Source: Hippasteria phrygiana
Lineage: Eukaryota; Echinodermata; Asteroidea; Valvatida; Goniasteridae
Direction: 5' to 3'
NCBI GenBank assembly: GCA_037893225.1
Contig: JAZGUH010000074.1
Location: 62,001 to 126,000 of the forward strand
Length of the DNA: 64,000 nucleotides
Under the pieces are notes generated by a model. The model was not told the DNA's origin, ran no database searches, and was given only the letters and a program-made list of their open reading frames with translations. Each line of letters begins with the position of its first letter. The first letter of the stretch is position 1. The position numbers were made by a program, and so were the translations under genes. This document shows positions 1-42,560 of the stretch, piece after piece.

Positions 1-1508
1 TAGATATCGGTAATGGCCGATTTATCCACAGATTCAGATTCAGTTTCTGATGACATATCATGGGATAAACTTTCGCAACAAACCCCAGTGGATGCTCAAG
101 ATCATACAAATCATGACGATCATCCACGATCAACCTTTGACGTAGTATATAGCCAGGCACAAAGTAATACGCAGTTTCAAACTCAAAAAAGAAAACGACC
201 AAAGTCCAGCCTTAATTACAGTGACGTCTACACAGATTCAGAAGGAGACACTCCTAATGAACATCCAACAAAATCCCACAGGCGGGGTATCCGTAAAAGG
301 GTCTATGTATTATATGTGTACATTCATCTGGATGTATCTTGTTCGTATCTTGCTTGTAAACTTAGGTCGATAAAAAGCTTCAGGCTTATTTTGACCCGTC
401 ACTTTAATAACAAAATTATCATGCTACTAAAAGAGGGGTAGTGGCTGCAGACAGTTCTTTAGCAGCGAAAAAAGAAATTTCAATCTACAACTTAGAAGTA
501 CATTCTTTTTTAAGCAGTTGATAGATAGAGCTGAAACAACTTTACTTGGTCGCTATTCCAATGGCACTTGTCAACAACTCGCTGTGTGAAACAACATTTC
601 CGCACATCAAGTCTACATGTAATGTATAGTCAACATGTACAGTACATACATTACATGTACAGTATACATCCGATCCAAGTACTCGGTATGTGAATTGTTC
701 ATGTCATAAAAAGTAATAAGCGAATAATTCGTGCAAAACAGGTGAAAATTAGGGTTGTTTGATTATTTGTCGGGGTGTTTATTTCTTTGTTTCTTCGGTA
801 GTCATCTTTATCATAGTGATGTGGGGATCTGTGCGCCAGTGGCGTAAACACGGGGAAGGAGTTCAGGGGCCCGCCGATTTGTATTTCTTTTTTGTTTCGT
901 AAATTTAAAAAGGGGAAAATTGTACACAAAGTGATGTTTCAAATTTCAAGCGGTGTTTAGGGCAGGGGTATCCCCGTTGAGAAAAAGTTCAAGATGCAGT
1001 ACTTCGTTGACAAATTCAATAATCATCCCCACTTTTCGACACGGATTTACTCGCCACTGGTGAAATCTCATTTGTTTGGCGTATATTATTTATTGGTAAT
1101 ACCTGTTATTATTGTGTTTATTATTTGATAGTGTTGAAATAACTCTTATGATGTAACTTTCCATAAATTCCTGCCGTCAAATGTAACACAAGGTCGTGGA
1201 CTCAATATCGGCATCAGTATAGCTGTTTTACTTTGATTTGCTCATCATTGCACGCACAGCCGATTTTAGTCGAAATTTATTTCGATACATAGGCCTACAA
1301 CTTTATTTTTGTATAGGAAGGGGCTGGTGCATTATTTATTTTACAATTATAAATACAGATTTACTTATTTACTTATTTTCGTTTAGTTCTGTCATGGTAC
1401 ATTTTGGCGTTTGGCGGGTGGGGTGTCATGTTATCACGGACTATGTTCGACTGTAGGCCTATCGTATATATTTTTGGTGGCACAAACACATACAAAATAC
1501 TTGTACAT
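1..1508. repeat. Y0 module, 3' part
   Basis: This is the right-hand 1.5 kb of a Y module, cut by the window edge just before the small-ORF ATG at 13. It holds the small ORF, an inverted repeat near 613-656 (arms ACATGTAATGTA / TACATTACATGT) and AT-rich sequence without other coding potential. It shares the variant CTACAACTT with Y3, while Y1, Y2 and Y4 have CTAGAACTT. Confidence 0.9.
13..441 (+). CDS. hypothetical 142-codon ORF of the Y module (copy 0)
   Basis: I do not recognise this protein. Residues 1-96 are hydrophilic and protein-like: a Ser/Asp-rich start, a basic KRKRPK cluster near residue 60 that could be a nuclear localisation signal, then an acidic stretch and a basic SHRRGIRKR. 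From about residue 97 the translation becomes hydrophobic and looks like intron read-through (VYVLYVYIH), so the coding part may be a first exon with a weak donor near 289-298. The ATG context is favourable: G at -3 and G at +4. In complete copies a CAGGTAAGC donor-like site lies about 60 bp upstream and CTTCTAG about 10 bp upstream. All six copies translate identically. It could be a captured gene fragment or chance. Confidence 0.35.
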   Translation: MADLSTDSDSVSDDISWDKLSQQTPVDAQDHTNHDDHPRSTFDVVYSQAQSNTQFQTQKRKRPKSSLNYSDVYTDSEGDTPNEHPTKSHRRGIRKRVYVLYVYIHLDVSCSYLACKLRSIKSFRLILTRHFNNKIIMLLKEG

Positions 1509-1560
1509 GCAGTATGTACAGGATCATGCATGCAGCAGTCATTGCAATTGTAATCTGATA

Positions 1561-1616
1561 TGGCGCGCGCGCCCTGTGGGTCAGCGCGCGCGAGCCCTGT
1601 AGGTCAGCGCGCGGTC
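1561..1616. repeat. CpG-rich short triplication at the start of X
   Basis: GCGCGCGCG-type blocks alternate with CCTGTGGGTCA and CCTGTAGGTCA, giving three GCGCGC blocks about 22 bp apart. It is present at the same place in every X module. The strong CpG content contrasts with the AT-rich Y sequence before it. Function unknown. Confidence 0.7.
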
Positions 1617-3013
1617 GTGGGGTATTATTTGCAGTTACATGGGTTCATCTGCGTTCATCAGTTCGGGATTCAGTGTACAGCCGCAAGCCTGCTATGATCG
1701 TGACGACACAGCCCCTTTAATAGCCACGAACCGCCAGTAACAACGTCTGGGGAATTTCGTAAAATCTCCCGCCGAAAAATGGGGAAAACTAGTGCGCATG
1801 CGCAATTCTGTATGAAAATGAGGAACATTTTCTCTTCACGCACGCGCATATACGAAGAAGAGCTGCCATGAAGTTGCACAATAGTCTGGTAGCTATCTAT
1901 ACTACTGGCCGAAGGGGCGCCGTTCGCGATCGAAGCTTCGTAGGATCGAATTTCCCTTCACAGTAGTTATACTAAATACCCAATAAATAAAATAATAAGA
2001 AAATAATTGCGGGCACAGACATGGGTGCATATTCTGAGAAGTCGAAGCTTGCAAAATAAATGTCCTTAAAGGTAATGTACATGATCGGTCATTGTTACAA
2101 TTTTCAAAAATGGGCGGATTTGGGGGTTAGTGTTTTACAGGAAATATCGTTCTACTAACCTGTTCAAAGTTTTGCGTTGTTGGATGGCGAAAACAAGAGA
2201 GAAAAACGGCGCTCCTTTCCAGCCGTTTGGCGGATGATAGCGTGACGCGCTCCGAATGGCAGCATGTCCGGGGCGCGCCACTGTTCGGGTAGCCACGCGC
2301 GCCTTGACTTAAGTCTTAAGGGCAGTTTTCCAACGTTTTCCAGCTGGAAATCGTTGGAAAACGATATCAATTTCTACTTTTCTTGACAACGACAGCACAA
2401 CTAGTGCCGTAATTTCACAGGATGATTGAGACTACTATTAACTTACAATCGAGTAAGGTATTTCGTAATAATTCAGTAAAAACAACTTAGACGATTACCA
2501 ATCGTGTACACTACTTTTAAATATAATAATAAATAAAGAACATTACTTGTTTTTTTTCCCGGAAACCCTTAGAGTTAATCAATCAAATATGCATTCTGGT
2601 ATTATGCCTTTTTAAACAAAAAAGTTATGTGATGTTGACCAAGCTTTCAGGTGCCGCGATTCACCGGGGCCCCATACTCCGGCTTACCGGCTCCCATGTA
2701 GGACTCTTAAGGGCTCGGATTCCGGTCCATCACAGATCAGACCCCGGTCCATCACACCTCCTTCCCCACTCATCCATATAACCTGAAGGTCTAGCACCGT
2801 AAAAGGGAGGAACATGGCTGCACCCTAAGCAATGACTGCCGAGCCAGCCAAACGTGCCATGAGCCTGTACGATGATGCTTACCTGGATTTCACGAGCGGT
2901 CCCAACTGCACTGCTAATCGACCGCACGCCACAGTACAGTTGGTATTTGGGGACGGTAAACGAATACTCTTATAAATAATGACATTTCTGGAAAAGAAAA
3001 AGGAAATACTGAA

Positions 3014-3095
3014 AAGCTTGGAATCGAACCCTCAGCTTAAGATCCGATAAACGACTCGATGAACGACTCGCTTAACCACTCGGCCACTAAGCTGT
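3014..3095 (-). ncRNA. tRNA(Ser/Leu)-like sequence with Pol III A and B boxes
   Basis: Read on the minus strand, an A box TGGCCGAGTGG (3076-3086) and a B box GGTTCGATTCC (3020-3030) match the internal Pol III promoter of tRNA genes. The class-II-like A box plus GGTTAAGCG suggests a serine or leucine tRNA ancestor. T-stem and acceptor pairing are poor and the middle contains a CGAGTCGTT duplication, so this is a pseudo-tRNA or SINE head, not a working tRNA. B-box copies start near 8061, 18868, 21613, 24359, 27104, 32112, 37154 and 42199; the one at 8061 lacks 8 bp. Confidence 0.6.
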
Positions 3096-3240
3096 TACTG
3101 CCTGAGAGAATTTTTAAACCTATTGAAACAGAGAAGAAACCACACGGCGGCAGTACAATACCCGAACATGGTTGAATGAATCCATTATCCCTTGCGTACG
3201 GATGACGCCATATGGCGTCAAAAAAATGCCACCAGGCCGG

Positions 3241-3646
3241 ATGGCGTGATTTTTTTCCCTAGGAAAGTTAGGGCAATTATCATAAATGGGCGCTGTACTT
3301 GGCTGTGTGAGCTGAGACAGGTTCTCAGACTTGTTTTCCCTTGAAATAAAATCCTCCACACCACAATTAGTACAAGAAAAATAAATATAAATCGGGCAAA
3401 GGATTCGAACCCAGGCCTCTGTAGTCCAAAGCCTTATGCTCTACCAATATAGCCACAACAGTAGCTGGACCAAATATTTTTACTTCAACCTTATATTGTT
3501 GTCTGAATGATGCGTGCGATGCTTATTATAAAAAATAACTTAATCATGAATATGCATGATGGTAATAGCGGTCTAGATACGCCCATTTATGATAACTGCC
3601 CCTAACCTTCCTTGGAAACAAAATTATGCGGCCGGATGACGCCATT
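3241..3646. repeat. inverted repeat enclosing the second tRNA-like sequence
   Basis: The arm at 3241-3292 (GGCAATTATCATAAATGGGC) matches the complement of the arm at 3580-3646 (GCCCATTTATGATAACTGCC), with further complementarity around CCTAGGAAAGTTAGG / CCTAACCTTCCTTGG and GCCGGATG. It looks like a foldback element of about 400 bp that carries or captured a Pol III unit. It is present in all full X modules. Confidence 0.7.
3394..3465 (-). ncRNA. second tRNA-like sequence with Pol III boxes
   Basis: On the minus strand TGGCTATATTGGTAGAGCA resembles a D-arm/A box and GGGTTCGAATCC (complement at 3401-3412) is a consensus B box, 32 bp apart. Acceptor and T-stem pairing are weak, so it is tRNA-derived rather than a functional tRNA. 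It sits in the loop of the inverted repeat at 3241-3646. Copies have their B box near 14208, 19250, 21995, 24741, 27487, 32493 and 37537; X9 ends before this point. Confidence 0.55.
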
Positions 3647-4300
3647 GGCCGCCGTTTGTGCAGTTTCAATCCATTGTTGGATTATTGTTTATGTCATGCT
3701 TGACTGCAAAAACACATTGTAGCGGTTCGATTTGGCTGCCAGAACCGCTGCAACACCCCGACGTCTCCCGTAAAATACCGTGCCCAAGGGGTTAAGAATC
3801 ATGGCTTTGTAACTGTAAATTTGAAAAATGAGGGAAACTAGTGCGCATGCGTCAATTCTGTATGAAAATGAGGAACATTTTCTCTTCACGCACGCGCACA
3901 TACGAAGAAGAGCTGCCATAAAGTTGCACAATAGTCTGGTAGCTATCTATACTGGCGAAGGGGCGCCGTTCGCGATCGAAGCTGCTATGCTTTGCCGGCT
4001 ATATGCGCTAGCGGCTGCAGTGTCAAGTTCACCGCTCGTGTTCGCATGCGACGTCTTGCAACTGTGACGATCGACGTGAGGGAGATGCGACGGGGAATTG
4101 GAAGGTGCAAACTACATAATGCGCGCTGCAATTATTGGGCTAAGCAGGTGCGTGCGCACAACACGGCTTCTACGAAATTCCCAAGACGTTGTTACTGGCC
4201 GTTCGTGCTTAATATTTTGTCATGATAACGCCCTCTCGCGGCGGCCGGTTATCGCGTATATGCGTAACAACGTCTTGAACCAAGACTAGGTAGACAACTG

Positions 4301-4624
4301 TACTCTCTTAATGTAAAAGAGTGAAAAACTCAATCTCAAAAAGAGTGAATCCCTTCTCAAACCACTCGAAAAGAGTGAATCTCTCATAAAAACCACTCGA
4401 AAAGAGTGAAAAACCACTCGAAAAGAGTGAAATTTACACTCTTTCAAGGAACCATATAAGGGACAACTCGAAAAAGAGTTGTCCCTTATTATGGCTCCAC
4501 GAAAGAGTGGAAATTTCACTCTTTTCGAGTGGTTTTTATAAGAGATTCACTCTTTTCGAGTGGTTTGAGAAGGGATTCACTCTTTTTGAGAGTGAGTTTT
4601 TCACTCTTTTACATTAAGAGAGTA
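4301..4624. repeat. 324-bp foldback (long near-perfect palindrome) in Y1
   Basis: The sequence begins TACTCTCTTA and ends TAAGAGAGTA, and the two halves are reverse complements over most of their length. Each arm is itself made of short repeats of ACTCGAAAAGAGTG, a small palindrome. The centre is near AACTCGAAAAAGAGTTG, followed by TGTCCCTTAT. As single-stranded DNA or RNA this would fold into one long hairpin of about 150 bp. It resembles a foldback or MITE-type element fixed in every Y module. Confidence 0.88.
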
Positions 4625-4629
4625 GGCCT

Positions 4630-4756
4630 ACTGTATAGAGTACCGAAGTCTGACGTCAGTTGCCGCGGCAATGGTTCCAAACAAATGCAGTTTAGAATGT
4701 ATTCTGGTTCCAAACATTGTATTGATTGACGTCATCACTTCGGTACTCTATACAGT
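4630..4756. repeat. 127-bp terminal-inverted-repeat element with CRE sites
   Basis: The ends are ACTGTATAGAGTACCGAAGT and its exact reverse complement. Each arm is followed inward by TGACGTCA (near 4651 and 4728), the full CRE palindrome bound by ATF/CREB-type factors in animals. It begins 5 bp after the foldback, so the two may be one composite element. Copies lie at 15435-15561, 28714-28840, 33721-33847 and 38764-38890. It could be a small MITE or part of a promoter for the downstream ORF. Confidence 0.75.
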
Positions 4757-5019
4757 CAGTCCCACAATTACAATATAGAATTCTCACCATGGTCTTTGTG
4801 TGGCGTCGGTTCTATGTCGACGTCGCAAAGTATGCAAAATCGGAAAACTTCCTGTCGAGCGGTGACGTGGTGCGGACGTGTCTGTGTGGCGCGAAATTTA
4901 AATTTTGCCCCTCATCAACGGCTGATCCTTGATCACTATAACTTTACCTTTTAGGACACAGGTAAGCAATACAATTAAATCGCGAGGTGTATTGGAATAC
5001 TCCCTTCTAGATATCGGTA

Positions 5020-5448
5020 ATGGCCGATTTATCCACAGATTCAGATTCAGTTTCTGATGACATATCATGGGATAAACTTTCGCAACAAACCCCAGTGGAT
5101 GCTCAAGATCATACAAATCATGACGATCATCCACGATCAACCTTTGACGTAGTATATAGCCAGGCACAAAGTAATACGCAGTTTCAAACTCAAAAAAGAA
5201 AACGACCAAAGTCCAGCCTTAATTACAGTGACGTCTACACAGATTCAGAAGGAGACACTCCTAATGAACATCCAACAAAATCCCACAGGCGGGGTATCCG
5301 TAAAAGGGTCTATGTATTATATGTGTACATTCATCTGGATGTATCTTGTTCGTATCTTGCTTGTAAACTTAGGTCGATAAAAAGCTTCAGGCTTATTTTG
5401 ACCCGTCACTTTAATAACAAAATTATCATGCTACTAAAAGAGGGGTAG
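5020..5448 (+). CDS. hypothetical 142-codon ORF, copy 1
   Basis: Translation identical to the copy at 13-441. Here the full upstream context is present: CAGGTAAGC near 4959, CTTCTAG near 5005, and CRE-bearing inverted repeats at 4630-4756 that could act as promoter elements. Function unknown. Confidence 0.35.
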   Translation: MADLSTDSDSVSDDISWDKLSQQTPVDAQDHTNHDDHPRSTFDVVYSQAQSNTQFQTQKRKRPKSSLNYSDVYTDSEGDTPNEHPTKSHRRGIRKRVYVLYVYIHLDVSCSYLACKLRSIKSFRLILTRHFNNKIIMLLKEG

Positions 5449-7247
5449 TGGCTGCAGACAGTTCTTTAGCAGCGAAAAAAGAAATTTCAATCTAGAACTT
5501 AGAAGTACATTCTTTTTTAAGCAGTTGATAGATAGAGCTGAAACAACTTTACTTGGTCGCTATTCCAATGGCACTTGTCAACAACTCGCTGTGTGAAACA
5601 ACATTTCCGCACATCAAGTCTACATGTAATGTATAGTCAACATGTACAGTACATACATTACATGTACAGTATACATCCGATCCAAGTACTCGGTATGTGA
5701 ATTGTTCATGTCATAAAAAGTAATAAGCGAATAATTCGTGCAAAACAGGTGAAAATTAGGGTTGTTTGATTATTTGTCGGGGTGTTTATTTCTTTGTTTC
5801 TTCGGTAGTCATCTTTATCATAGTGATGTGGGGATCTGTGCGCCAGTGGCGTAAACACGGGGAAGGAGTTCAGGGGCCCGCCGATTTGTATTTCTTTTTT
5901 GTTTCGTAAATTTAAAAAGGGGAAAATTGTACACAAAGTGATGTTTCAAATTTCAAGCGGTGTTTAGGGCAGGGGTATCCCCGTTGAGAAAAAGTTCAAG
6001 ATGCAATACTTCGTTGACAAATTCAATAATCATCCCCACTTTTCGACACGGATTTACTCGCCACTGGTGAAATCTCATTTGTTTGGCGTATATTATTTAT
6101 TGGTAATACCTGTTATTATTGTGTTTATGATTTGATAGTGTTGAAATAACTCTTATGATGTAACTTTCCATAAATTCCTGCCGTCAAATGTAACACAAGG
6201 TCGTGGACTCAATATCGGCATCAGTATAGCTGTTTTACTTTGATTTGCTCATCATTGCACGCACAGCCGATTTTAGTCGAAATTTATTTCGATACATAGG
6301 CCTACAACTTTATTTTTGTATAGGAAGGGGCTGGTGCATTATTTATTTTACAATTATAAATACAGATTTACTTATTTACTTATTTTCGTTTAGTTCTGTC
6401 ATGGTACATTTTGGCGTTTGGCGGGTGGGGTGTCATGTTATCACGGACTATGTTCGACTGTAGGCCTATCGTATATATTTTTGGTGGCACAAACACATAC
6501 AAAATACTTGTACATGCAGTATGTACAGGATCATGCATGCAGCAGTCATTGCAATTGTAATCTGATATGGCGCGCGCGCCCTGTGGGTCAGCGCGCGCGA
6601 GCCCTGTAGGTCAGCGCGCGGTCGTGGGGTATTATTTGCAGTTACATGGGTTCATCTGCGTTCATCAGTTCGGGATTCAGTGTACAGCCGCAAGCCTGCT
6701 ATGATCGTGACGACACAGCCCCTTTAATAGCCACGAACCGCCAGTAACAACGTCTGGGGAATTTCGTAAAATCTCCCGCCGAAAAATGGGGAAAACTAGT
6801 GCGCATGCGCAATTCTGTATGAAAATGAGGAACATTTTCTCTTCACGCACGCGCATATACGAAGAAGAGCTGCCATGAAGTTGCACAATAGTCTGGTAGC
6901 TATCTATACTACTGGCCGAAGGGGCGCCGTTCGCGATCGAAGCTTCGTAGGATCGAATTTCCCTTCACAGTAGTTATACTAAATACCCAATAAATAAAAT
7001 AATAAGAAAATAATTGCGGGCACAGACATGGGTGCATATTCTGAGAAGTCGAAGCTTGCAAAATAAATGTCCTTAAAGGTAATGTACATGATCGGTCATT
7101 GTTACAATTTTCAAAAATGGGCGGATTTGGGGGTTAGTGTTTTACAGGAAATATCGTTCTACTAACCTGTTCAAAGTTTTGCGTTGTTGGATGGCGAAAA
7201 CAAGAGAGAAAAACGGCGCTCCTTTCCAGCCGTTTGGCGGATGATAG

Positions 7248-7280
7248 CCTTTTGTCAAGGCACGCGTGGCTACCTGGACG
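7248..7280. repeat. 33-bp segment present in most X modules, absent from X1 and X7
   Basis: Positions 7254-7275 form one arm of a hairpin whose other arm is 7328-7348: GTCAAGGCACGCGTGGCTAC pairs with GTAGCCACGCGCGCCTTGAC with one mismatch. X1 and X7 lack exactly this left-arm segment and keep the right arm. Confidence 0.8.
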
Positions 7281-8212
7281 CGTGACGCGCTCCGAATGGC
7301 AGCATGTCCGGGGCGCGCCACTGTTCGGGTAGCCACGCGCGCCTTGACTTAAGTCTTAAGGGCAGTTTTCCAACGTTTTCCAGCTGGAAATCGTTGGAAA
7401 ACGATATCAATTTCTACTTTTCTTGACAACGACAGCACAACTAGTGCCGTAATTTCACAGGATGATTGAGACTACTATTAACTTACAATCGAGTAAGGTA
7501 TTTCGTAATAATTCAGTAAAAACAACTTAGACGATTACCAATCGTGTACACTACTTTTAAATATAATAATAAATAAAGAACATTACTTGTTTTTTTTCCC
7601 GGAAACCCTTAGAGTTAATCAATCAAATATGCATTCTGGTATTATGCCTTTTTAAACAAAAAAGTTATGTGATGTTGACCAAGCTTTCAGGTGCCGCGAT
7701 TCACCGGGGCCCCATACTCCGGCTTACCGGCTCCCATGTAGGACTCTTAAGGGCTCGGATTCCGGTCCATCACAGATCAGACCCCGGTCCATCACACCTC
7801 CTTCCCCACCCATCCATATAACCTGAAGGTCTAGCACCGTAAAAGGGAGGAACATGGCTGCACCCTAAGCAATGACTGCCGAGCCAGCCAAACGTGCCAT
7901 GAGCCTGTACGATGATGCTTACCTGGACTTCACGAGCGGTCCCAACTGCACTGCTAATCGACCGCACGCCACAGTACAGTTGGTATTTGGGGACGGTAAA
8001 CGAATACTCTTATAAATAATGACATTTCTGGAAAAGAAAAAGGAAATACTGAAAAGCTGGGAATCGAACCCTCAGCTTAAGAGCCGATAAACGACTCGAC
8101 TCGCTTAACCACTCGGCCACTAAGCTGTTACTGCCTGAGAGAATTTTTAAACCTATTGAAACAGAGAAGAAACCACACGGCGGCAGTACAATACCCGAAC
8201 ATGGTTGAATGA

Positions 8213-8216
8213 ATAC
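8213..8216. other. target-site duplication ATAC, left
   Basis: ATAC precedes the left LTR and is repeated at 13985-13988 after the right LTR; uninserted X modules have it once. Confidence 0.9.
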
Positions 8217-8556
8217 TGTAGCGTTTGGACCGGCTAGCAACAGAGGGCGCTCTACACCTTCCACGGTGCGGACTGGAGCCCCTGTGAAGTGGACCGGCTC
8301 ACAACAGAGGGCGCTCTACACCTTTCACGGTGCGAACTAAGAACCCTGGAAAACAGACTGGTCAACCCGGCTCGGCAGCCATCTTGTTGTTGTTGCTATA
8401 TAGCGTCAGTCAGTCACATGTTTTGGAGCTTGTTATGCAAAGAAGTGTGTTTTGTTCTGTACCGTAAATTGGGAATAAAGCGAGGTTCGAGCAGAAATAT
8501 AATTGCCTGAGTTGTCAATGATTGTGTTCCGATCAAAGCCCAATCGACACGCTACA
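8217..8556 (+). repeat. left LTR (340 bp)
   Basis: Starts TGTAGCG, ends GCTACA. In its 5' part a segment of about 48 bp containing AACAGAGGGCGCTCTACACC occurs twice, 63 bp apart (from about 8227 and 8290), like a duplicated U3 enhancer. TATATAG at 8397-8403 is a possible TATA box and AATAAA at 8474-8479 a polyadenylation signal. GCCATCTTG just upstream of the TATA is the complement of a YY1-type site. Confidence 0.93.
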
Positions 8557-8557
8557 C

Positions 8558-8575
8558 TGGCGGCAGCGGTGACAC
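8558..8575 (+). promoter_or_regulatory. primer-binding site candidate
   Basis: TGGCGGCAGCGGTGACAC starts 1 bp after the left LTR. A TGG start complements the CCA end of a tRNA, as in other LTR elements. I cannot say which tRNA is used. Confidence 0.6.
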
Positions 8576-8644
8576 GATCTGGACGGGAAATTCAGGTATT
8601 TTTGACTGTTGTTTTGCTCGGTGGCTTGAACACGGATCGGCGTT

Positions 8645-9346
8645 ATGGCCACATGTAGGGAACATATCGCGGATGAGACCCTGAAAACATATGTGACGAT
8701 AGATGAATTGCAATCTTTCTTGTCCCCCGGGCCACAATCTAGTGGGGGAATTACTCCGGGGAGGGTAGCAAAGGAGTGGGAATTTGACCTGTGGGGGCGT
8801 GATGATGGTCAGCACTTAGGGACAGAGTTCGCTAGGCCAGTCAGGGAGCCCGTCAATCAGGAATTGGAAATTCCCACCCAGGAATACCCGCGGGGAGAAA
8901 CCACTTCGATTTACAGTAGGGGCCAGAAAACTATGAGTACACCCCTTCCCTCTCCCCGCAAACCAGTCCATAGCAATATAACAGACCCGTTTGGTTTTGG
9001 CGGGAACAGTTGCCCACGTGACCTTGACCTGCGCGGTTTTGGCGGGAACGGCGGCACGTGTGACCACGTGACGGACCCATGCTTCCCCGAAGGGACTAAC
9101 CAAACACAAACAAATGAGGTGGATCCTTACCATTCGGAGAGGATCCGCCGTACACAAACCAATGAGGGGGATCCTTACCATTCGGAGAGGATCCGCCGTG
9201 CACAAACCAATGAGGCGGATCCCCCCCAGAGGATCCGCCGTGCACAAACCAATGAGGTGGATCCTTACCATTCGGAGAGGATCCGCTGTACACAAACCAA
9301 TGAGGCGGATCCCCCCCCAAAGGATCCGCTGTACACAAACACATGA
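8645..9346 (+). pseudogene. gag: Gag N-terminal part, frameshifted in the minisatellite
   Basis: The frame opens 88 bp after the left LTR with MATCREHIADETLK, followed by about 150 residues of unrecognised, protein-like sequence with DELQSFL and a Pro/Gly-rich part. It then enters 16- and 14-residue repeats of the type TQTNEVDPYHSERIRR and AQTNEADPPQRIRR. At 9311-9318 a run of eight C replaces the usual seven, and the frame ends at the TGA of 9344-9346. The same peptide repeat resumes in another frame after 9985 and leads into the conserved Gag core, so gag was probably one ORF broken here. Confidence 0.6.
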
Positions 9347-10200
9347 GGCGGAACCCCCAAGAGGATCCGCTGTACACAAACCAATGGGGCGGATTCCCCC
9401 CAGAGGATCCGCTGTACACAAACACATGAGGTGGATCCCCCCCAGAGGATCCGCCGTGCACCAACCAATGAGGTGGATCCTTACCATTCGGAGAGGATCC
9501 GCTGTACACAAACCAATGTGGCGGATCCCCCCAGAGGATCCGCCGTGCACAAACCAATGAGGGGGATCCTTACCATTCGGAGAGGATCCGCTGTACACAA
9601 ACCAATGGGGCGGATCCCCCCCAGAGGATCCGCCGTGCACAAGCCAATGAGGTGGATCCTTACCATTCGGAGAGGATCCGCTGTACACAAGCCAATGGGG
9701 CGGATCCCCCCAGAGGATCCGCCATGCACAAACGGATGAGGTGGATCCTTACCATTCGGAGAGGATCCGCTGTACACAAACCGATGGGGCGGATCCCCCC
9801 CAGAGGATCCGCCGTGCACAAACCAATGAGGGGGATCCTTACCATTCGGAGAGGATCCGCTGTACACAAACCGATGGGGCGGATCCCCCCCAGAGGATCC
9901 GCCGTGCACCAACCAATGAGGTGGATCCTTACCATTCGGAGAGGATCCGCTGTACACAAACCAATGTGGCGGATCCCCCCCCCCCAGAGGATCCGCCGTG
10001 CACAAACCAATGAGGGGGATCCTTACCATTCGGAGAGGATCCGCTGTACACAAACCAATGGGGCGGATCCCCCCCAGAGGATCCGCCGTGCACAAACCAA
10101 TGAGGTGGATCCTTACCATTCGGAGAGGATCCGCTGTACACAAGCCAATGGGGCGGATCCCCCCCAGAGGATCCGCCATGCACAAACCTATGAGGTGGAT
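9105..10200. repeat. BamHI-rich minisatellite inside gag
   Basis: About two dozen units of two alternating kinds: about 48 bp with GGATCCTTACCATTCGGAG and about 42 bp with GGATCC followed by a C-run. Each unit holds two GGATCC hexamers and the core ACAAACCAATGAGG. The 48- and 42-bp lengths are multiples of three, but C-runs vary from 6 to 11 and shift the frame. Long open frames exist on both strands purely because the repeats lack stops. Confidence 0.92.
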
Positions 10201-13984: not shown

Positions 13985-13988
13985 ATAC
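13985..13988. other. target-site duplication ATAC, right
   Basis: Partner of the left copy at 8213-8216. Confidence 0.9.
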
Positions 13989-28304: not shown

Positions 28305-28385
28305 TCGTGATAACGCCCTCTCGCGGCGGCCGGTTATCGCGTATATGCGTAACAACGTCTTGAACCAAGACTAGGTAGACAACTG

Positions 28386-29104: not shown

Positions 29105-29533
29105 ATGGCCGATTTATCCACAGATTCAGATTCAGTTTCTGATGACATATCATGGGATAAACTTTCGCAACAAACCCCAGTGGATGCTCAAGATCATACA
29201 AATCATGACGATCATCCACGATCAACCTTTGACGTAGTATATAGCCAGGCACAAAGTAATACGCAGTTTCAAACTCAAAAAAGAAAACGACCAAAGTCCA
29301 GCCTTAATTACAGTGACGTCTACACAGATTCAGAAGGAGACACTCCTAATGAACATCCAACAAAATCCCACAGGCGGGGTATCCGTAAAAGGGTCTATGT
29401 ATTATATGTGTACATTCATCTGGATGTATCTTGTTCGTATCTTGCTTGTAAACTTAGGTCGATAAAAAGCTTCAGGCTTATTTTGACCCGTCACTTTAAT
29501 AACAAAATTATCATGCTACTAAAAGAGGGGTAG
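29105..29533 (+). CDS. hypothetical 142-codon ORF, copy 3
   Basis: Translation identical to the other copies; lies in Y3. Function unknown. Confidence 0.35.
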   Translation: MADLSTDSDSVSDDISWDKLSQQTPVDAQDHTNHDDHPRSTFDVVYSQAQSNTQFQTQKRKRPKSSLNYSDVYTDSEGDTPNEHPTKSHRRGIRKRVYVLYVYIHLDVSCSYLACKLRSIKSFRLILTRHFNNKIIMLLKEG

Positions 29534-33310: not shown

Positions 33311-33391
33311 TCATGATAACGCCCTCTCGCGGCGGCCGGTTATCGCGTATATGCGTAACAACGTCTTGAACCAAGACTAGGTAGACAACTG

Positions 33392-33715
33392 TACTCTCTT
33401 AATGTAAAAGAGTGAAAAACTCAATCTCAAAAAGAGTGAATCCCTTCTCAAACCACTCGAAAAGAGTGAATCTCTCATAAAAACCACTCGAAAAGAGTGA
33501 AAAACCACTCGAAAAGAGTGAAATTTACACTCTTTCAAGGAACCATATAAGGGACAACTCGAAAAAGAGTTGTCCCTTATTATGGCTCCACGAAAGAGTG
33601 GAAATTTCACTCTTTTCGAGTGGTTTTTATAAGAGATTCACTCTTTTCGAGTGGTTTGAGAAGGGATTCACTCTTTTTGAGAGTGAGTTTTTCACTCTTT
33701 TACATTAAGAGAGTA
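33392..33715. repeat. foldback in Y4
   Basis: Copy of the Y-module foldback, 324 bp, same form as in Y1, including the TTTACACTC mismatch opposite GTGGAAA. Confidence 0.86.
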
Positions 33716-34111
33716 GGCCTACTGTATAGAGTACCGAAGTCTGACGTCAGTTGCCGCGGCAATGGTTCCAAACAAATGCAGTTTAGAATGTATTCTGGTT
33801 CCAAACATTGTATTGATTGACGTCATCACTTCGGTACTCTATACAGTCAGTCCCACAATTACAATATAGAATTCTCACCATGGTCTTTGTGTGGCGTCGG
33901 TTCTATGTCGACGTCGCAAAGTATGCAAAATCGGAAAAACTTCCTGTCGAGCGGTGACGTGGTGCGGACGTGTCTGTGTGGCGCGAAATTTAAATTTTGC
34001 CCCTCATCAACGGCTGATCCTTGATCACTATAACTTTACCTTTTAGGACACAGGTAAGCAATACAATTAAATCGCGAGGTGTATTGGAATACTCCCTTCT
34101 AGATATCGGTA

Positions 34112-34540
34112 ATGGCCGATTTATCCACAGATTCAGATTCAGTTTCTGATGACATATCATGGGATAAACTTTCGCAACAAACCCCAGTGGATGCTCAAGA
34201 TCATACAAATCATGACGATCATCCACGATCAACCTTTGACGTAGTATATAGCCAGGCACAAAGTAATACGCAGTTTCAAACTCAAAAAAGAAAACGACCA
34301 AAGTCCAGCCTTAATTACAGTGACGTCTACACAGATTCAGAAGGAGACACTCCTAATGAACATCCAACAAAATCCCACAGGCGGGGTATCCGTAAAAGGG
34401 TCTATGTATTATATGTGTACATTCATCTGGATGTATCTTGTTCGTATCTTGCTTGTAAACTTAGGTCGATAAAAAGCTTCAGGCTTATTTTGACCCGTCA
34501 CTTTAATAACAAAATTATCATGCTACTAAAAGAGGGGTAG
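34112..34540 (+). CDS. hypothetical 142-codon ORF, copy 4
   Basis: Translation identical to the other copies; lies in Y4. Function unknown. Confidence 0.35.
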   Translation: MADLSTDSDSVSDDISWDKLSQQTPVDAQDHTNHDDHPRSTFDVVYSQAQSNTQFQTQKRKRPKSSLNYSDVYTDSEGDTPNEHPTKSHRRGIRKRVYVLYVYIHLDVSCSYLACKLRSIKSFRLILTRHFNNKIIMLLKEG

Positions 34541-35608
34541 TGGCTGCAGACAGTTCTTTAGCAGCGAAAAAAGAAATTTCAATCTAGAACTTAGAAGTAC
34601 ATTCTTTTTTAAGCAGTTGATAGATAGAGCTGAAACAACTTTACTTGGTCGCTATTCCAATGGCACTTGTCAACAACTCGCTGTGTGAAACAACATTTCC
34701 GCACATCAAGTCTACATGTAATGTATAGTCAACATGTACAGTACATACATTACATGTACAGTATACATCCGATCCAAGTACTCGGTATGTGAATTGTTCA
34801 TGTCATAAAAAGTAATAAGCGAATAATTCGTGCAAAACAGGTGAAAATTAGGGTTGTTTGATTATTTGTCGGGGTGTTTATTTCTTTGTTTCTTCGGTAG
34901 TCATCTTTATCATAGTGATGTGGGGATCTGTGCGCCAGTGGCGTAAACACGGGGAAGGAGTTCAGGGGCCCGCCGATTTGTATTTCTTTTTTGTTTCGTA
35001 AATTTAAAAAGGGGAAAATTGTACACAAAGTGATGTTTCAAATTTCAAGCGGTGTTTAGGGCAGGGGTATCCCCCGTTGAGAAAAAGTTCAAGATGCAGT
35101 ACTTCGTTGACAAATTCAATAATCATCCCCACTTTTCGACACGGATTTACTCGCCACTGGTGAAATCTCATTTGTTTGGCGTATATTATTTATTGGTAAT
35201 ACCTGTTATTATTGTGTTTATTATTTGATAGTGTTGAAATAACTCTTATGATGTAACTTTCCATAAATTCCTGCCGTCAAATGTAACACAAGGTCGTGGA
35301 CTCAATATCGGCATCAGTATAGCTGTTTTACTTTGATTTGCTCATCATTGCACGCACAGCCGATTTTAGTCGAAATTTATTTCGATACATAGGCCTACAA
35401 CTTTATTTTTGTATAGGAAGGGGCTGGTGCATTATTTATTTTACAATTATAAATACAGATTTACTTATTTACTTATTTTCGTTTAGTTCTGTCATGGTAC
35501 ATTTTGGCGTTTGGCGGGTGGGGTGTCATGTTATCACGGACTATGTTCGACTGTAGGCCTATCGTATATATTTTTGGTGGCACAAACACATACAAAATAC
35601 TTGTACAT

Positions 35609-38354
35609 GCAGTATGTACAGGATCATGCATGCAGCAGTCATTGCAATTGTAATCTGATATGGCGCGCGCGCCCTGTGGGTCAGCGCGCGCGTGCCCTGT
35701 AGGTCAGCGCGCGGTCGTGGGGTATTATTTGCAGTTACATGGGTTCATCTGCGTTCATCAGTTCGGGATTCAGTGTACAGCCGCAAGCCTGCTATGATCG
35801 TGACGACACAGCCCCTTTAATAGCCACGAACCGCCAGTAACAACGTCTGGGGAATTTCGTAAAATCTCCCGCCGAAAAATGGGGAAAACTAGTGCGCATG
35901 CGCAATTCTGTATGAAAATGAGGAACATTTTCTCTTCACGCACGCGCATATACGAAGAAGAGCTGCCATGAAGTTGCACAATAGTCTGGTAGCTATCTAT
36001 ACTACTGGCCGAAGGGGCGCCGTTCGCGATCGAAGCTTCGTAGGATCGAATTTCCCTTCACAGTAGTTATACTAAATACCCAATAAATAAAATAATAAGA
36101 AAATAATTGCGGGCACAGACATGGGTGCATATTCTGAGAAGTCGAAGCTTGCAAAATAAATGTCCTTAAAGGTAATGTACATGATCGGTCATTGTTACAA
36201 TTTTCAAAAATGGGCGGATTTGGGGGTTAGTGTTTTACAGGAAATATCGTTCTACTAACCTGTTCAAAGTTTTGCGTTGTTGGATGGCGAAAACAAGAGA
36301 GAAAAACGGCGCTCCTTTCCAGCCGTTTGGCGGATGATAGCCTTTTGTCAAGGCACGCGTGGCTACCTGGACGCGTGACGCGCTCCGAATGGCAGCATGT
36401 CCGGGGCGCGCCACTGTCCGGGTAGCCACGCGCGCCTTGACTTAAGTCTTAAGGGCAGTTTTCCAACGTTTTCCAGCTGGAAATCGTTGGAAAACGATAT
36501 CAATTTCTACTTTTCTTGACAACGACAGCACAACTAGTGCCGTAATTTCACAGGATGATTGAGACTACTATTAACTTACAATCGAGTAAGGTATTTCGTA
36601 ATAATTCAGTAAAAACAACTTAGACGATTACCAATCGTGTACACTACTTTTAAATATAATAATAAATAAAGAACATTACTTGTTTTTTTTCCCGGAAACC
36701 CTTAGAGTTAATCAACCAAATATGCATTCTGGTATTATGCCTTTGTAAACAAAAAAGTTATGTGATGTTGACCAAGCTTTCAGGTGCCGCGATTCACCGG
36801 GGCCCCATACTCCGGCTTACCGGCTCCCATGTAGGACTCTTAAGGGCTCGGATTCCGGTCCATCACAGATCAGACCCCGGTCCATCACACCTCCTTCCCC
36901 ACTCATCCATATAACCTGAAGGTCTAGCACCGTAAAAGGGAGGAACATGGCTGCACCCTAAGAAATGACTGCCGAGCCAGCCAAACGTGCCATGAGCCTG
37001 TACGATGATGCTTACCTGGACTTCACGAGCGGTCCCAACTGCACTGCTAATCGACCGCACGCCACAGTACAGTTGGTATTTGGGGACGGTAAACGAATAC
37101 TCTTATAAATAATGACATTTCTGGAAAAGAAAAAGGAAATACTGAAAAGCTGGGAATCGAACCCTCAGCTTAAGAGCCGATAAACGACTCGATGAACGAC
37201 TCGCTTAACCACTCGGCCACTAAGCTGTTACTGCCTGAGAGAATTTTTAAACCTATTGAAACAGAGAAGAAACCACACGGCGGCAGTACAATACCCGAAC
37301 ATGGTTGAATGAATACCATTATCCCTTGCGTACGGATGACGCCATATGGCGTCAAAAAAATGCCACCAGGCCAAATGGCGTGATTTTTTTCCCTAGGAAA
37401 GTTAGGGCAATTATCATAAATGGGCGCTGTACTTGGCTGTGTGAGCTGAGACAGGTTCTCAGACTTGTTTTCCCTTGAAATAAAATCCTCCACACCACAA
37501 TTAGTACAAGAAAAATAAATATAAATCGGGCAAAGGATTCGAACCCAGGCCTCTGTAGTCCAAAGCCTTATGCTCTACCAATATAGCCACAACAGTAGCT
37601 GGACCAAATATTTTTACTTCAACCTTATATTGTTGTCTGAATGATGCGTGCGATGCTTATTATAAAAAATAACTTAATCATGAATATGCATGCTGGTAAT
37701 AGCGGTCTAGATACGCCCATTTATGATAACTGCCCCCTAACCTTCCTTGGAAACAAAATTATGCGGCCGGATGACGCCATTGGCCGCCGTTTGTGCAGTT
37801 TCAATCCATTGTTGGATTATTGTTTATGTCATGCTTGACTGCAAAAACACATTGTAGCGGTTCGATTTGGCTGCCAGAACCGCTGCAACACCCCGACGTC
37901 TCCCGTAAAATACCGTGCCCAAGGGGTTAAGAATCATGGCTTTGTAACTGTAAATTTGAAAAATGAGGGAAACTAGTGCGCATGCGTCAATTCTGTATGA
38001 AAATGAGGAACATTTTCTCTTCACGCACGCGCACATACGAAGAAGAGCTGCCATAAAGTTGCACAATAGTCTGGTAGCTATCTATACTGGCGAAGGGGCG
38101 CCGTTCGCGATCGAAGCTGCTATGCTTTGCCGGCTATATGCGCTAGCGGCTGCAGTGTCAAGTTCACCGCTCGTGTTCGCATGCGACGTCTTGCAACTGT
38201 GACGGTCGACGTGAGGGAGATGCGACGGGGAATTGGAAGGTGCAAACTACATAATGCGCGCTGCAATTATTGGGCTAAGCAGGTGCGTGCGCACAACACG
38301 GCTTCTACGAAATTCCCAAGACGTTGTTACTGGCCGTTCGTGCTTAATATTTTG
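35609..38354. repeat. X8 module (2746 bp)
   Basis: Shares the private variants of X3, but is followed by a Y module rather than another X. Confidence 0.92.
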
Positions 38355-38435
38355 TCGTGATAACGCCCTCTCGCGGCGGCCGGTTATCGCGTATATGCGT
38401 AACAACGTCTTGAACCAAGACTAGGTAGACAACTG

Positions 38436-38758
38436 TACTCTCTTAATGTAAAAGAGTGAAAAACTCAATCTCAAAAAGAGTGAATCCCTTCTCAAACCAC
38501 TCGAAAAGAGTGAATCTCTCATAAAAACCACTCGAAAAGAGTGAAAACCACTCGAAAAGAGTGAAATTTCCACTCTTTCAAGGAACCATATAAGGGACAA
38601 CTCGAAAAAGAGTTGTCCCTTATTATGGCTCCACGAAAGAGTGGAAATTTCACTCTTTTCGAGTGGTTTTTATAAGAGATTCACTCTTTTCGAGTGGTTT
38701 GAGAAGGGATTCACTCTTTTTGAGAGTGAGTTTTTCACTCTTTTACATTAAGAGAGTA
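38436..38758. repeat. foldback in Y5
   Basis: Copy of the Y-module foldback, 323 bp, same form as in Y2. Confidence 0.86.
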
Positions 38759-39154
38759 GGCCTACTGTATAGAGTACCGAAGTCTGACGTCAGTTGCCGC
38801 GGCAATGGTTCCAAACAAATGCAGTTTAGAATGTATTCTGGTTCCAAACATTGTATTGATTGACGTCATCACTTCGGTACTCTATACAGTCAGTCCCACA
38901 ATTACAATATAGAATTCTCACCATGGTCTTTGTGTGGCGTCGGTTCTATGTCGACGTCGCAAAGTATGCAAAATCGGAAAAACTTCCTGTCGAGCGGTGA
39001 CGTGGTGCGGACGTGTCTGTGTGGCGCGAAATTTAAATTTTGCCCCTCATCAACGGCTGATCCTTGATCACTATAACTTTACCTTTTAGGACACAGGTAA
39101 GCAATACAATTAAATCGCGAGGTGTATTGGAATACTCCCTTCTAGATATCGGTA

Positions 39155-39583
39155 ATGGCCGATTTATCCACAGATTCAGATTCAGTTTCTGATGACATAT
39201 CATGGGATAAACTTTCGCAACAAACCCCAGTGGATGCTCAAGATCATACAAATCATGACGATCATCCACGATCAACCTTTGACGTAGTATATAGCCAGGC
39301 ACAAAGTAATACGCAGTTTCAAACTCAAAAAAGAAAACGACCAAAGTCCAGCCTTAATTACAGTGACGTCTACACAGATTCAGAAGGAGACACTCCTAAT
39401 GAACATCCAACAAAATCCCACAGGCGGGGTATCCGTAAAAGGGTCTATGTATTATATGTGTACATTCATCTGGATGTATCTTGTTCGTATCTTGCTTGTA
39501 AACTTAGGTCGATAAAAAGCTTCAGGCTTATTTTGACCCGTCACTTTAATAACAAAATTATCATGCTACTAAAAGAGGGGTAG
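39155..39583 (+). CDS. hypothetical 142-codon ORF, copy 5
   Basis: Translation identical to the other copies although the sequence just downstream has drifted. Lies in Y5. Function unknown. Confidence 0.35.
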   Translation: MADLSTDSDSVSDDISWDKLSQQTPVDAQDHTNHDDHPRSTFDVVYSQAQSNTQFQTQKRKRPKSSLNYSDVYTDSEGDTPNEHPTKSHRRGIRKRVYVLYVYIHLDVSCSYLACKLRSIKSFRLILTRHFNNKIIMLLKEG

Positions 39584-40651
39584 TGGCTGCAGACTGTTCT
39601 TTAGCAGCGAAAAAAGAAATTTAAATGTAGAACTTAGAAGTACATTCTTTTTTAAGCAGTTGATAGATAGAGCTGAAACAACTTTACTTGGTCGCTATTC
39701 CAATGGCACTTGTCAACAACTCGCTGTGTGAAACAACATTTCCGCACATCAAGTCTACATGTAATGTATAGTCAACATGTACAGTACATACATTACATGT
39801 ATAGTATACATCCGATCCAAGTACTCGGTATGTGAATTGTTCATGTCATAAAAAGTAATAAGCGAATAATTCGTGCAAAACAGGTGAAAATTAGGGTTGT
39901 TTGATTATTTGTCGGGGTGTTTATTTCTTTGTTTCTTCGGTAGTCATCTTTATCATAGTGATGTAGGGATCTGTGCGCCAGTGGCGTAAACACGGGGAAG
40001 GAGTTCAGGGGCCCGCCGATTTGTATTTCTTTTTTGTTTCGTAAATTTAAAAAGGGGAAAATTGTACACAAAGTGATGTTTCAAATTTCAAGCGGTGTTT
40101 AGGGCAGGGGTATCCCCCGTTGAGAAAAAGTTCAAGATGCAGTACTTCGTTGACAAATTCAATAATCATCCCCACTTTTCGACACGGATTTACTCGCCAC
40201 TGGTGAAATCTCATTTGTTTGGCGTATATTATTTATTGGTAATACCTGTTATTATTGTGTTTATTATTTGATAGTGTTGAAATAACTCTTATGATGTAAC
40301 TTTCCATAAATTCCTGCCGTCAAATGTAACACAAGGTCGTGGACTCAATATCGGCATCAGTATAGCTGTTTTACTTTGATTTGCTCATCATTGCACGCAC
40401 AGCCGATTTTAGTCGAAATTTATTTCGATACATAGGCCTACAACTTTATTTTTGTATAGGAAGGGGCTGGTGCATTATTTATTTTACAATTATAAATACA
40501 GATTTAATTATTTACTTATTTTCGTTTAGTTCTGTCATGGTACATTTTGGCGTTTGGCGGGTGGGGTGTCATGTTATCACGGACTATGTTCGACTGTAGG
40601 CCTATCGTATATATTTTTGGTGGCACAAACACATACAAAATACTTGTACAT

Positions 40652-42560
40652 GCAGTATGTACAGGATCATGCATGCAGCAGTCATTGCAATTGTAATCTG
40701 ATATGGCGCGCGCGCCCTGTGGGTCAGCGCGCGCGAGCCCTGTAGGTCAGCGCGCGGTCGTGGGGTATTATTTGCAGTTACATGGGTTCATCTGCGTTCA
40801 TCAGTTCGGGATTCAGTGTACAGCCGCAAGCCTGCTATGATCGTGACGACACAGCCCCTTTAATAGCCACGAACCGCCAGTAACAACGTCTGGGGAATTT
40901 CGTAAAATCTCTCCCGCCGAAAAATGGGGAAAACTAGTGCGCATGCGCAATTCTGTATGAAAATGAGGAACATTTTCTCTTCACGCACGCGCATATACGA
41001 AGAAGAGCTGCCTGAAGTTGCACAATAGTCTGGTAGCTATCTATACTACTGGCCGAAGGGGCGCCGTTCGCGATCGAAGCTTCGTAGGATCGAATTTCCC
41101 TTCACAGTAGTTATACTAAATACCCAATAAATAAAATAATAAGAAAATAATTGCGGGCACAGACATGGGTGCATATTCTGAGAAGTCGAAGCTTGCAAAA
41201 TAAATGTCCTTAAAGGTAATGTACATGATCGGTCATTGTTACAATTTTCAAAAATGGGCGGATTTGGGGGTTAGTGTTTTACAGGAAATATCGTTCTACT
41301 AACCTGTTCAAAGTTTTGCGTTGTTGGATGGCGAAAACAAGAGAGAAAAACGGCGCTCCTTTCCAGCCGTTTGGCGGATGATAGCCTTTTGTCAAGGCAC
41401 GCGTGGCTACCTGGACGCGTGACGCGCTCCGAATGGCAGCATGTCCGGGGCGCGCCACTGTTCGGGTAGCCACGCGCGCCTTGACTTAAGTCTTAAGGGC
41501 AGTTTTCCAACGTTTTCCAGCTGGAAATCGTTGGAAAACGATATCAATTTCTACTTTTCTTGACAACGACAGCACAACTAGTGCCGTAATTTCACAGGAT
41601 GATTGAGACTACTATTAACTTACAATCGAGTAAGGTATTTCGTAATAATTCAGTAAAAACAACTTAGACGATTACCAATCGTGTACACTACTTTTAAATA
41701 TAATAATAAATAAAGAACATTACTTGTTTTTTTTTCCCGGAAACCCTTAGAGTTAATCAATCAAATATGCATTCTGGTATTATGCCTTTTTAAACAAAAA
41801 AGTTATGTGATGTTGACCAAGCTTTCAGGTGCCGCGATTCACCGGGGCCCCATACTCCGGCTTACCGGCTCCCATGTAGGACTCTTAAGGGCTCGGATTC
41901 CGGTCCATCACAGATCAGACCCCGGTCCATCACACCTCCTTCCCCACCCATCCATATAACCTGAAGGTCTAGCACCGTAAAAGGGAGGAACATGGCTGCA
42001 CCCTAAGCAATGACTGCCGAGCCAGCCAAACGTGCCATGAGCCTGTACGATGATGCTTACCTGGACTTCACGAGCGGTCCCAACTGCACTGCTAATCGAC
42101 CGCACGCCACAGTACAGTTGGTATTTGGGGATGGTAAACGAATACTCTTATAAATAATGACATTTCTGGAAAAGAAAAAGGAAATACTGAAAAGCTGGGA
42201 ATCGAACCCTCAGCTTAAGAGCCGATAAACGACTCGATGAACGACTCGCTTAACCACTCGGCCACTAAGCTGTTACTGCCTGAGAGAATTTTTAAACCTA
42301 TTGAAACAGAGAAGAAACCACACGGCGGCAGTACAATACCCGAACATGGTTGAATGAATACCATTATCCCTTGCGTACGGATGACGCCATATGGCGTCAA
42401 AAAAATGCCACCAGGCCGGATGGCGTGATTTTTTTCCCTAGGAAAGTTAGGGCAATTATCATAAATGGGCGCTGTACTTGGCTGTGTGAGCTGAGACAGG
42501 TTCTCAGACTTGTTTTCCCTTGAAATAAAATCCTCCACACCACAATTAGTACAAGAAAAA
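40652..42560. repeat. X9 module, truncated at the array end
   Basis: The module follows the X sequence for about 1.9 kb and then stops after GTACAAGAAAAA. The second tRNA-like sequence and the right third of X are missing. It also has small private indels near 40910 and 41013. Unrelated DNA follows. Confidence 0.9.

Follow-up and report, generated by a model that had tools for sequence, protein, structure and literature searches.

Among the systems closest to the array considered here, Xmix and Xstir of Xenopus are T2-MITEs of the Kolobok superfamily; their description presents a non-autonomous TTAA-targeting element with AGGRR ends and an amplified internal tandem repeat, Xstir being termed a simple sequence repeat family (PMC6004289). 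Kolobok termini have the form 5'-RR...YY-3', unlike those of piggyBac, and the account of KolobokP describes multimers with RR-YY ends and several tandem units per target-site-flanked insertion, for which unequal exchange between direct repeats was proposed (PMC9587614). In Drosophila virilis, the foldback transposon Tetris reportedly fed a satellite (PMC4079207).

The window analyzed here, i.e., 64,000 nucleotides of contig C74 of the sea star Hippasteria phrygiana, holds an array which resembles Xmix/Xstir in its TTAA-targeting element (hereafter K, with AGGGG ends) and Tetris in the conversion of transposon parts, foldbacks included, into a satellite. In contrast to Xmix/Xstir, the repeated unit, 4.7–5.1 kb long, combines several transposons with a LINE fragment and includes one K terminus, and K is an element other than Tetris. 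Broken mobile elements, pieced together around the end of a TTAA-inserting DNA transposon, make up the array in head-to-tail copies, and it is probably a composite non-autonomous Kolobok-type transposon multimerised into a macrosatellite. Its layout is as follows; module limits come from module alignment, for X2 and the X3–X6 run together with self-BLAST.

1..42560, forward strand: part of the macrosatellite inside the window (array on contig C74)
1..1507, forward strand: Y1, clipped by the window edge
1508..4219, forward strand: X1, lacking a 33-bp stretch that X7 lacks as well
4220..6514, forward strand: Y2
6515..15025, forward strand: X2, interrupted by an LTR element
8217..13984, forward strand: LTR retroelement within X2, 5.77 kb, with an ATAC duplication
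15026..17321, forward strand: Y3
17322..28303, forward strand: X3-X4-X5-X6 (starts 17322, 20067, 22812 and 25558), a direct tandem of four X with no Y between
28304..30599, forward strand: Y4
30600..33309, forward strand: X7
33310..35607, forward strand: Y5, the representative Y
35608..38353, forward strand: X8, the representative X
38354..40650, forward strand: Y6
40651..42560, forward strand: X9, truncated by ~29 kb of other DNA

The original prediction of a two-module array at near identity was borne out by self-BLAST and module alignment, which gave nine X modules of ~2,745 bp, the last one incomplete, and six Y modules of ~2,297 bp, the first one clipped. The X modules measure 2,710–2,746 bp (X2 taken without its insertion, and the cut X9, 1,910 bp, excepted), the Y modules 2,295–2,298 bp (Y1 excepted). 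Long within-array alignments in self-BLAST are 98.8–100% identical, mostly 99.4–99.9%; e.g., 1-8216 matches 29093-37316 at 99.8%, and the Y portion common to all six copies contains 11 variable alignment columns. In unit coordinates (U1 = 33310), the array starts ahead of the window at U4908 (C74:53287); on the right, it ends at 42560 within X9, and unit sequence picks up again at L026:3250 (C74:133749). As anticipated, the array matches no rDNA, 5S or snRNA cluster (no Rfam match in the window at gathering scores), and no histone-like ORF was noticed on inspection of the ORF list. Judged by its sequence, every traceable component of the unit is mobile DNA, and the array does not have the appearance of a gene cluster; no source element could be assigned to U1-84, to U539-628 or to much of the interior of E1, the main body of X. 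The components of the representative unit are listed below.

33394..33713, unstranded: foldback (giant hairpin), TA-flanked, missing in other copies, which read CTGTATAGGCC
33721..33847, unstranded: second MITE with 20-bp terminal inverted repeats, holding both TGACGTCA palindromes
33938..34372, forward strand: LINE 5' end (5'UTR and ORF1 start), I/Nimb-like, 84-85% identical to dispersed LINE copies
34112..34540, forward strand: small ORF of 142 aa, its N-terminus from LINE ORF1, its C-terminus read from transposon DNA
34367..35820, forward strand: 3' part of K (U1058-2511), TTAA-flanked, Kolobok-like, ending ...GACGACACAGCCCCT-TTAA and joined to the LINE at ACAAAA
35823..38343, unstranded: E1, 2.5 kb long, bordered by imperfect terminal inverted repeats GCCACGAACC.../...GTTCGTGC
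37163..37219, reverse strand: tRNA-like stretch showing both A- and B-box patterns (pattern match)
37530..37592, reverse strand: tRNA-like stretch carrying a strict B box (limits set by eye)

K most likely belongs to the Kolobok superfamily, an assignment made from target site and termini, since no intact transposase for K was found; its candidate coding remnant is a Cys-rich stretch of 93 aa with no Pfam match. The left end reads TTAA-AGGGGCTGTGTCGTC... and the right end ...GACGACACAGCCCCT-TTAA, the termini AGGGGCTG...CAGCCCCT conform to 5'-RR...YY-3', and two copies, L013/L033 and C22 (L017/L053), have TTAA at either end, with no empty allele seen. Dispersed unit copies often end at a K terminus. 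Among the 18 dispersed regions L034-L051, 12 have unit sequence that breaks off at U2507-2513, nine of them with the exact CAGCCCCTTTAA followed by other sequence. As to the remaining six, in one the unit continues into E1, in another it breaks off at U2238, two carry the left end of K instead, and two lack any match of at least 50 bases. The left terminus TTAAAGGGGCTGTGTCG, together with left-end interior, occurs at eight loci (L016, L033, L042, L043, L053, L054, L055 and L056), three of which have one flank in common; these terminus counts are lower bounds. For the stretch of K upstream of U1058, 150 copies were scored out of 1,223 candidates. The K length of ~2 kb was pieced together from L013, which supplies 530 bp left of U1058, and from U1058-2511, no solo K having been read end to end. 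Two other placements were considered and rejected: the 204-bp piece U2308-2511 is the right end of K and not a SINE, and the unit does not start at Y, as the dispersed copies put its natural end at U2511, within X. E1 itself can be read as a separate element making up most of X; it is flanked by TTAATA on either side, with ~160-bp direct repeats just inside each end, and its interior pieces U2855-2928 and U3145-3306 are found elsewhere too.

The small ORF is, by homology, a leftover fragment of LINE ORF1 fused to transposon DNA. Over residues 1-89/90 it is matched, at 77-81%, by the opening part of long reading frames dispersed in the genome, many of them of 545-561 aa, and a search with the LINE ORF1 protein gave 30 proteins. 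Four matching loci were examined and represent one LINE family, 5.97 kb long between two copies read through, with endonuclease and reverse transcriptase scoring above Pfam cut-offs, RNase H and a zinc knuckle falling slightly short of them, and a (CAA)n 3' tail. The homology of the unit to this ~6-kb source LINE, a full element with endonuclease and reverse transcriptase, begins at the very first bases of the latter and covers the UTR and ~89 codons of ORF1, and the point of fusion with the transposon shows a 6-nt microhomology, the shared ACAAAA. The source LINE, which we tentatively place in the I/Nimb clade, resembles such elements in its zinc-knuckle ORF1, endonuclease, reverse transcriptase, RNase H and tail, whereas the array retains just its first ~430 bases. 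A spliced gene beginning with the small ORF was also considered and rejected: the splice-donor-like site upstream is present in the LINE itself. Since the small ORF is a retrotransposon leftover, the array illustrates jumping genes turning into a satellite rather than a new type of gene cluster.

The composite transposon is built as follows. The TTAA-targeting K forms the backbone, with E1 set against its right end; a second K copy further along has lost its left part, the LINE 5' end being fused to it at the microhomology, the kind of junction expected if a deletion had removed the DNA from within an inserted LINE into K, and the MITEs and foldbacks occupy the region between the K copies. The outer K ends may let the composite move by means of a transposase supplied from elsewhere, and the direct repeat of the 1.45-kb 3' part of K (U1058-2511) would enable expansion, probably by unequal exchange, or else by re-integration of circles. 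Further exchange would keep long arrays alike, and Y was presumably deleted out of a run of X units. No host function need be assumed for the array.

Other contigs hold arrays of the X/Y unit as well, some reaching ~150 kb, the genome totals being lower bounds. On contig C22, a 20.8-kb stretch runs from 838064 to 858865 with TTAA and a K end on each side, and it contains four ORF copies spaced 4,706-4,707 bp apart (the tandem order rests on this spacing, 847501-853899 in the middle not having been read). Likewise, L013/L033 is a 6.7-kb copy of 1.3 units with TTAA at both sides; its left flank, and that flank alone, encodes a match to DDE_Tnp_1_7 (piggyBac-like), and the open frame on its right flank spans just some 50 codons. 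A tentative extension would make whole multi-unit arrays mobile, although this is rather doubtful: a 20-kb tandem of 4-5-kb composite units would transpose as one TTAA element, seeding new macrosatellites at other loci that expand to 150 kb and beyond. If so, macrosatellites would be a transposable state of a DNA transposon. The same genome offers a well-preserved macrosatellite alongside its source elements and a TTAA-bounded intermediate with four ORF copies in one stretch, and the route from a transposon to a kilobase-scale satellite becomes directly testable.

Spread and growth might instead have proceeded through re-integrated extrachromosomal circles, not through transposition of a TTAA-bounded composite. 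Some copies have other start or stop points (L014 from U2514 to U2168, L016 at U1422, L023 at U1594), and K ends were not observed at the three long-array ends read or partly read. These comprise the left end on C74, the right side of the same array, where it is cut, and the start on C497 (U4829); toward its other end, the C497 array continues as rearranged unit DNA up to the edge of L052, where the covered sequence stops. Because these ends have no K borders, the expansion of long arrays may have taken a route other than transposition of the composite. Still, the K terminus closing most dispersed regions and the TTAA flanking both sides of two multi-unit copies speak against circles, a route that we consider unlikely. 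In line with the composite reading, divergence is lower within than between contigs, at 0.26% vs. 1.37% (21 copies) and 0.47% vs. 1.49% (28 copies). Over U3200-4200, at least one between-contig pair is identical, and C497 differs from C74 by 0.32%, less than C74 copies differ from each other (0.49%), suggesting that homogenisation is not strictly local.

The original prediction was that the units could be transcribed and form double-stranded RNA. On this reading, the array would be a functional, transcribed macrosatellite in which hairpins, Pol III promoters and the small ORF cooperate, perhaps yielding double-stranded or small RNA. The individual features were largely found, and their joint operation is very unlikely. 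The hairpin is indeed very stable (331 nt, -237.5 kcal/mol, z -33.6, none of 100 shuffles being equally stable), but it is a TA-flanked foldback missing from several copies. The CRE palindromes TGACGTCA exceed chance (two per unit and 10 across the array, vs. 0.095 per unit expected in 200 first-order Markov simulations), but both are carried in the inverted ends of the second MITE, which has a solo relative at L053:8600-8722. The same holds for the strict B boxes (two per unit on the minus strand vs. 0.01 expected in 200 such simulations), but a fitting A-box pattern lies near just one of them, and ARAGORN predicts no tRNA gene in the unit or the array. Hairpin, CREs and tRNA-like boxes all look like separate insertions.

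The constancy of the small ORF was confirmed as well: it is nucleotide-identical in all six copies of the window and in three further C74 copies examined, and none of the variable Y columns falls within it. This constancy is weak evidence of constraint, because the shared Y varies so little overall. Across 26 array-type rows, which are not independent, codons with a single change number five synonymous vs. 29 nonsynonymous (74 vs. 271 sites), so the copy differences give no sign of purifying selection. LINE 5' ends often bear promoters, and therefore Y may be transcribed; nevertheless, the ORF is a LINE fragment and the other features look like passengers. In general, constant ORFs, promoter-like boxes and giant hairpins borne by satellites call for this caution.

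A strict KolobokP structure, in which long direct repeats at the termini each bear inverted ends of their own and multimerise via an encoded homing-type nuclease of the His-Me finger kind, is already disfavoured and highly improbable. The RR-YY ends and the tandem units in a single TTAA-bounded stretch are shared with the described KolobokP multimers, whose solo repeats reportedly have 3-5 bp duplications instead of TTAA (PMC9587614). In the array, however, no pair of complete terminal direct repeats bearing an inverted end on either side was found: the left inverted end is missing from the inner repeats, E1 comes after every right K end, and the K copy that follows starts internally after LINE sequence. 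The common K segment is 1.45 kb long, compared with ~450 or ~660 bp, and the unit has no frame of at least 150 aa, the longest stop-to-stop frame (145 aa) being the small ORF itself. An assembly artefact with duplicated or collapsed repeats, which the original prediction had allowed for, is scarcely credible: near-identical tandem DNA is difficult to assemble, but the units are distinguished by substitutions, the 33-bp indel and private LTR, TTAA and Helitron-like insertions, and related arrays with other periods (about 4,706 and 5,066 bp) are present on other contigs.

The LTR element splitting X2, absent from the original prediction, has 340-bp LTRs (8217-8556 and 13645-13984) with a mutual identity of 99.7% and a 4-bp target duplication, ATAC. 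Its 1,313-aa frame has Pfam integrase domain matches, a zinc knuckle and a C2H2 finger, both below cut-offs, and no reverse transcriptase match in Pfam. A Helitron origin of the unit was rejected, the Helitron-like frame sitting in DNA inserted into the array, outside the unit. The Helitron-like protein has 902 homologs; among the 120 listed, most are from marine invertebrates and fishes, and the best named ones are 59% identical.

Self-comparison of window positions 1-42560 confirmed the two-module macrosatellite of the original prediction, with nine X and six Y modules arranged as Y1-X1-Y2-X2-Y3-X3-X4-X5-X6-Y4-X7-Y5-X8-Y6-X9. In the assembly (944 Mb, 1,285 contigs), the window corresponds to C74:62001-126000; the array starts at C74:53287, upstream of the window, which thus holds just a part of it. 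Positions within the unit (U) are counted from window 33310 (U1), Y being U1-2298 and X being U2299-5044. The interpretation attached to this layout was supported only in part, since the small ORF turned out to be the 5' end of a LINE joined to other DNA, and the CRE palindromes to be MITE ends.

The 3' part of a TTAA-flanked DNA transposon, hereafter K, is represented by U1058-2511. Dispersed copies at five fetched loci (L013, L017, L021, L022 and L023) share a common stop at U2511, after GACGACACAGCCCCTTTAA. In 18 further regions, fetched where the right K end was expected, the match stopped at U2507-2513 in 12 cases, nine of them with exact CAGCCCCTTTAA followed by other sequence; of the remaining six, one continues into E1 (the terminal-inverted-repeat stretch of X), one stops at U2238, two carry the opposite K end, and two lack a match of at least 50 bases. 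The left K end, TTAA-AGGGGCTGTGTCGTCG, is present at eight loci; in L013, it lies 530 bp from U1058, with a Cys-rich frame extending beyond that point. At least 150 genome copies of this frame (150 scored of 1,223 candidates) indicate that K is common, its description being drawn from separate ends and partial copies. Kolobok elements are told from piggyBac by TTAA together with RR-YY ends (PMC9587614), and the Kolobok-like T2-MITEs of Xenopus carry AGGRR ends (PMC6004289). No transposase was found in the K copies examined, so we infer from sequence features that K belongs to the Kolobok superfamily.

The small ORF of 142 aa, located in Y, has at least 151 matches in the whole genome (150 scored of 1,965 candidates). 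Beside array-type copies, long open frames, many 545-561 aa in length, match its residues 1-89 or 1-90 at 77-81% identity. All four long-frame loci fetched belong to a LINE, 5.97 kb long in the two copies followed to the end, with a zinc knuckle just below the Pfam cut-off in ORF1, endonuclease and reverse transcriptase in ORF2, an RNase H match below the cut-off in a frame that runs off the edge of the locus, and a (CAA)n tail. Its first bases are common to five copies at the fetched loci (three with different flanks, two, both in L011, with the same flank), and the alignment of U629-1063 begins there; hence, Y contains the LINE 5' end. Downstream of U1058, the ORF continues into non-LINE DNA, the junction being a shared ACAAAA (LINE CAACAAAA-CGCC, partner TACACAAAA-TCCC, unit CAACAAAA-TCCC). 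Codon changes in the ORF among 26 array-type rows, themselves related, gave no sign of purifying selection (five synonymous and 29 nonsynonymous changes over 74 and 271 sites, respectively, leaving out two codons with more than one change).

Other components of the unit also resemble discrete insertions. The foldback, a giant hairpin in Y, occupies U85-404 and is flanked by TA; it is absent from the L013, L017 and L023 copies, which read CTGTATAGGCC; alignment shows it missing from the first L015 copy as well, and a longer stretch, U85-793, missing from L021. The empty sites keep both TA copies, which fits original absence and loss by excision alike. A second MITE, with a solo relative in L053, spans U412-538 and contains both TGACGTCA sites, so the CRE palindromes, present in the units as predicted, are part of MITE ends. 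Outside the array, the window has 17 more such palindromes; they recur in non-array repeats, e.g., as paired TGACGTCA sites in a 146-bp tandem repeat at 44303-44841. E1 occupies most of X, has arms of 47 nt (87% complementary), is bordered on each side by TTAATA, and appears to be a separate element. Strict B boxes occur in two tRNA-like stretches of the unit.

Multimers were found within single TTAA-bounded insertions. The L013 copy measures 6.7 kb and has TTAA at each border; starting at the left K end (L033:932), it comprises U1058-5044, U1-84 and U405-2511 and closes with the right K end (L013:6647). Its left flank has a DDE_Tnp_1_7 match, and its right flank carries a roughly 50-codon open frame. 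On contig C22, left and right K ends at 858865 and 838064, each with TTAA, enclose 20.8 kb with four ORF copies spaced by 4,706-4,707 bp (read on either side of 847501-853899).

The composite likely arose in the following order. K would have inserted, and E1 would have landed next to the right end of K. Further downstream, a second K copy may then have lost its left part by a deletion that fused it to an inserted LINE, after which the MITEs would have arrived. With the left and right K ends still outermost, the composite could have moved as a single piece, and tandem units would have formed by unequal exchange at its repeated 1.45-kb K segment. Later, some arrays would have lengthened and lost the outer K ends; X-only runs would be a product of Y loss.

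This kind of array is already known. Xmix/Xstir is a Kolobok MITE carrying an amplified inner repeat (PMC6004289), and KolobokP forms multimers (PMC9587614). The array as KolobokP itself is ruled out by two tested features, paired complete terminal direct repeats and repeat length. In the literature searched on macrosatellites and echinoderm tandem arrays, Kolobok, Xstir/MITEs and satellite–transposon composites, the unit is not named, an earlier description being possible.

Arrays occur on other contigs as well. C497 has at least 27 ORF copies among the matches listed, at 68-217 kb, spaced mostly by 5,040-5,044 bp, with a break of about 20 kb in the spacing at 187-206 kb. ORF positions give periods of 4,706 bp on C22 and about 5,066 bp on C84, and additional clusters on C59 and C483. 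A diverged variant (L018, C59:550-720 kb) differs from C74 by about 3% over U3200-4200 in one copy and has other DNA after U1422. Divergence is lower within than between contigs (0.26 vs. 1.37%, 21 copies; in a second region, 0.47 vs. 1.49%, 28 copies); in the second region, one or more pairs from different contigs are identical, and C497 differs from C74 by 0.32%, less than the 0.49% within C74.

Two modules are interrupted by inserted DNA:

8217-13984: LTR element in X2, 5.77 kb, 4-bp duplication
42561-64000, on to C74:133748: insertion into X9, about 29 kb, read on either side of C74:126001-130499

The LTR element has a 1,313-aa frame with integrase domain matches and no reverse transcriptase match; a minisatellite with periods of 48, 90 and 179 lies within the element at 9104-10201. 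In X9, about 29.2 kb of non-unit DNA follows GTACAAGAAAAA, and unit DNA picks up at C74:133749. This insertion begins with CTAGACATC, ends in a hairpin, GGCTTTTCCGAAGGATTTCGGAAAAGCC-AA, and is probably a giant Helitron-like element: its Helitron-like frame of 3,133 aa has PHD, OTU, Helitron_like_N and PIF1 above the Pfam cut-offs and an endonuclease domain just below. It also holds a 108/144-bp minisatellite (GGACCACACTGGTTCAGTGCTCTTCC) at 59472-61434; a tRNA-like sequence detected by ARAGORN at 45592-45663 is possibly a SINE head. A separate TTAA family of about 600 bp, with ends AGGGACACATTG or AGGTACACATTG, is inserted at differing points of the unit (L015:7928-8542, L026:7229-7821, L016 and L019).
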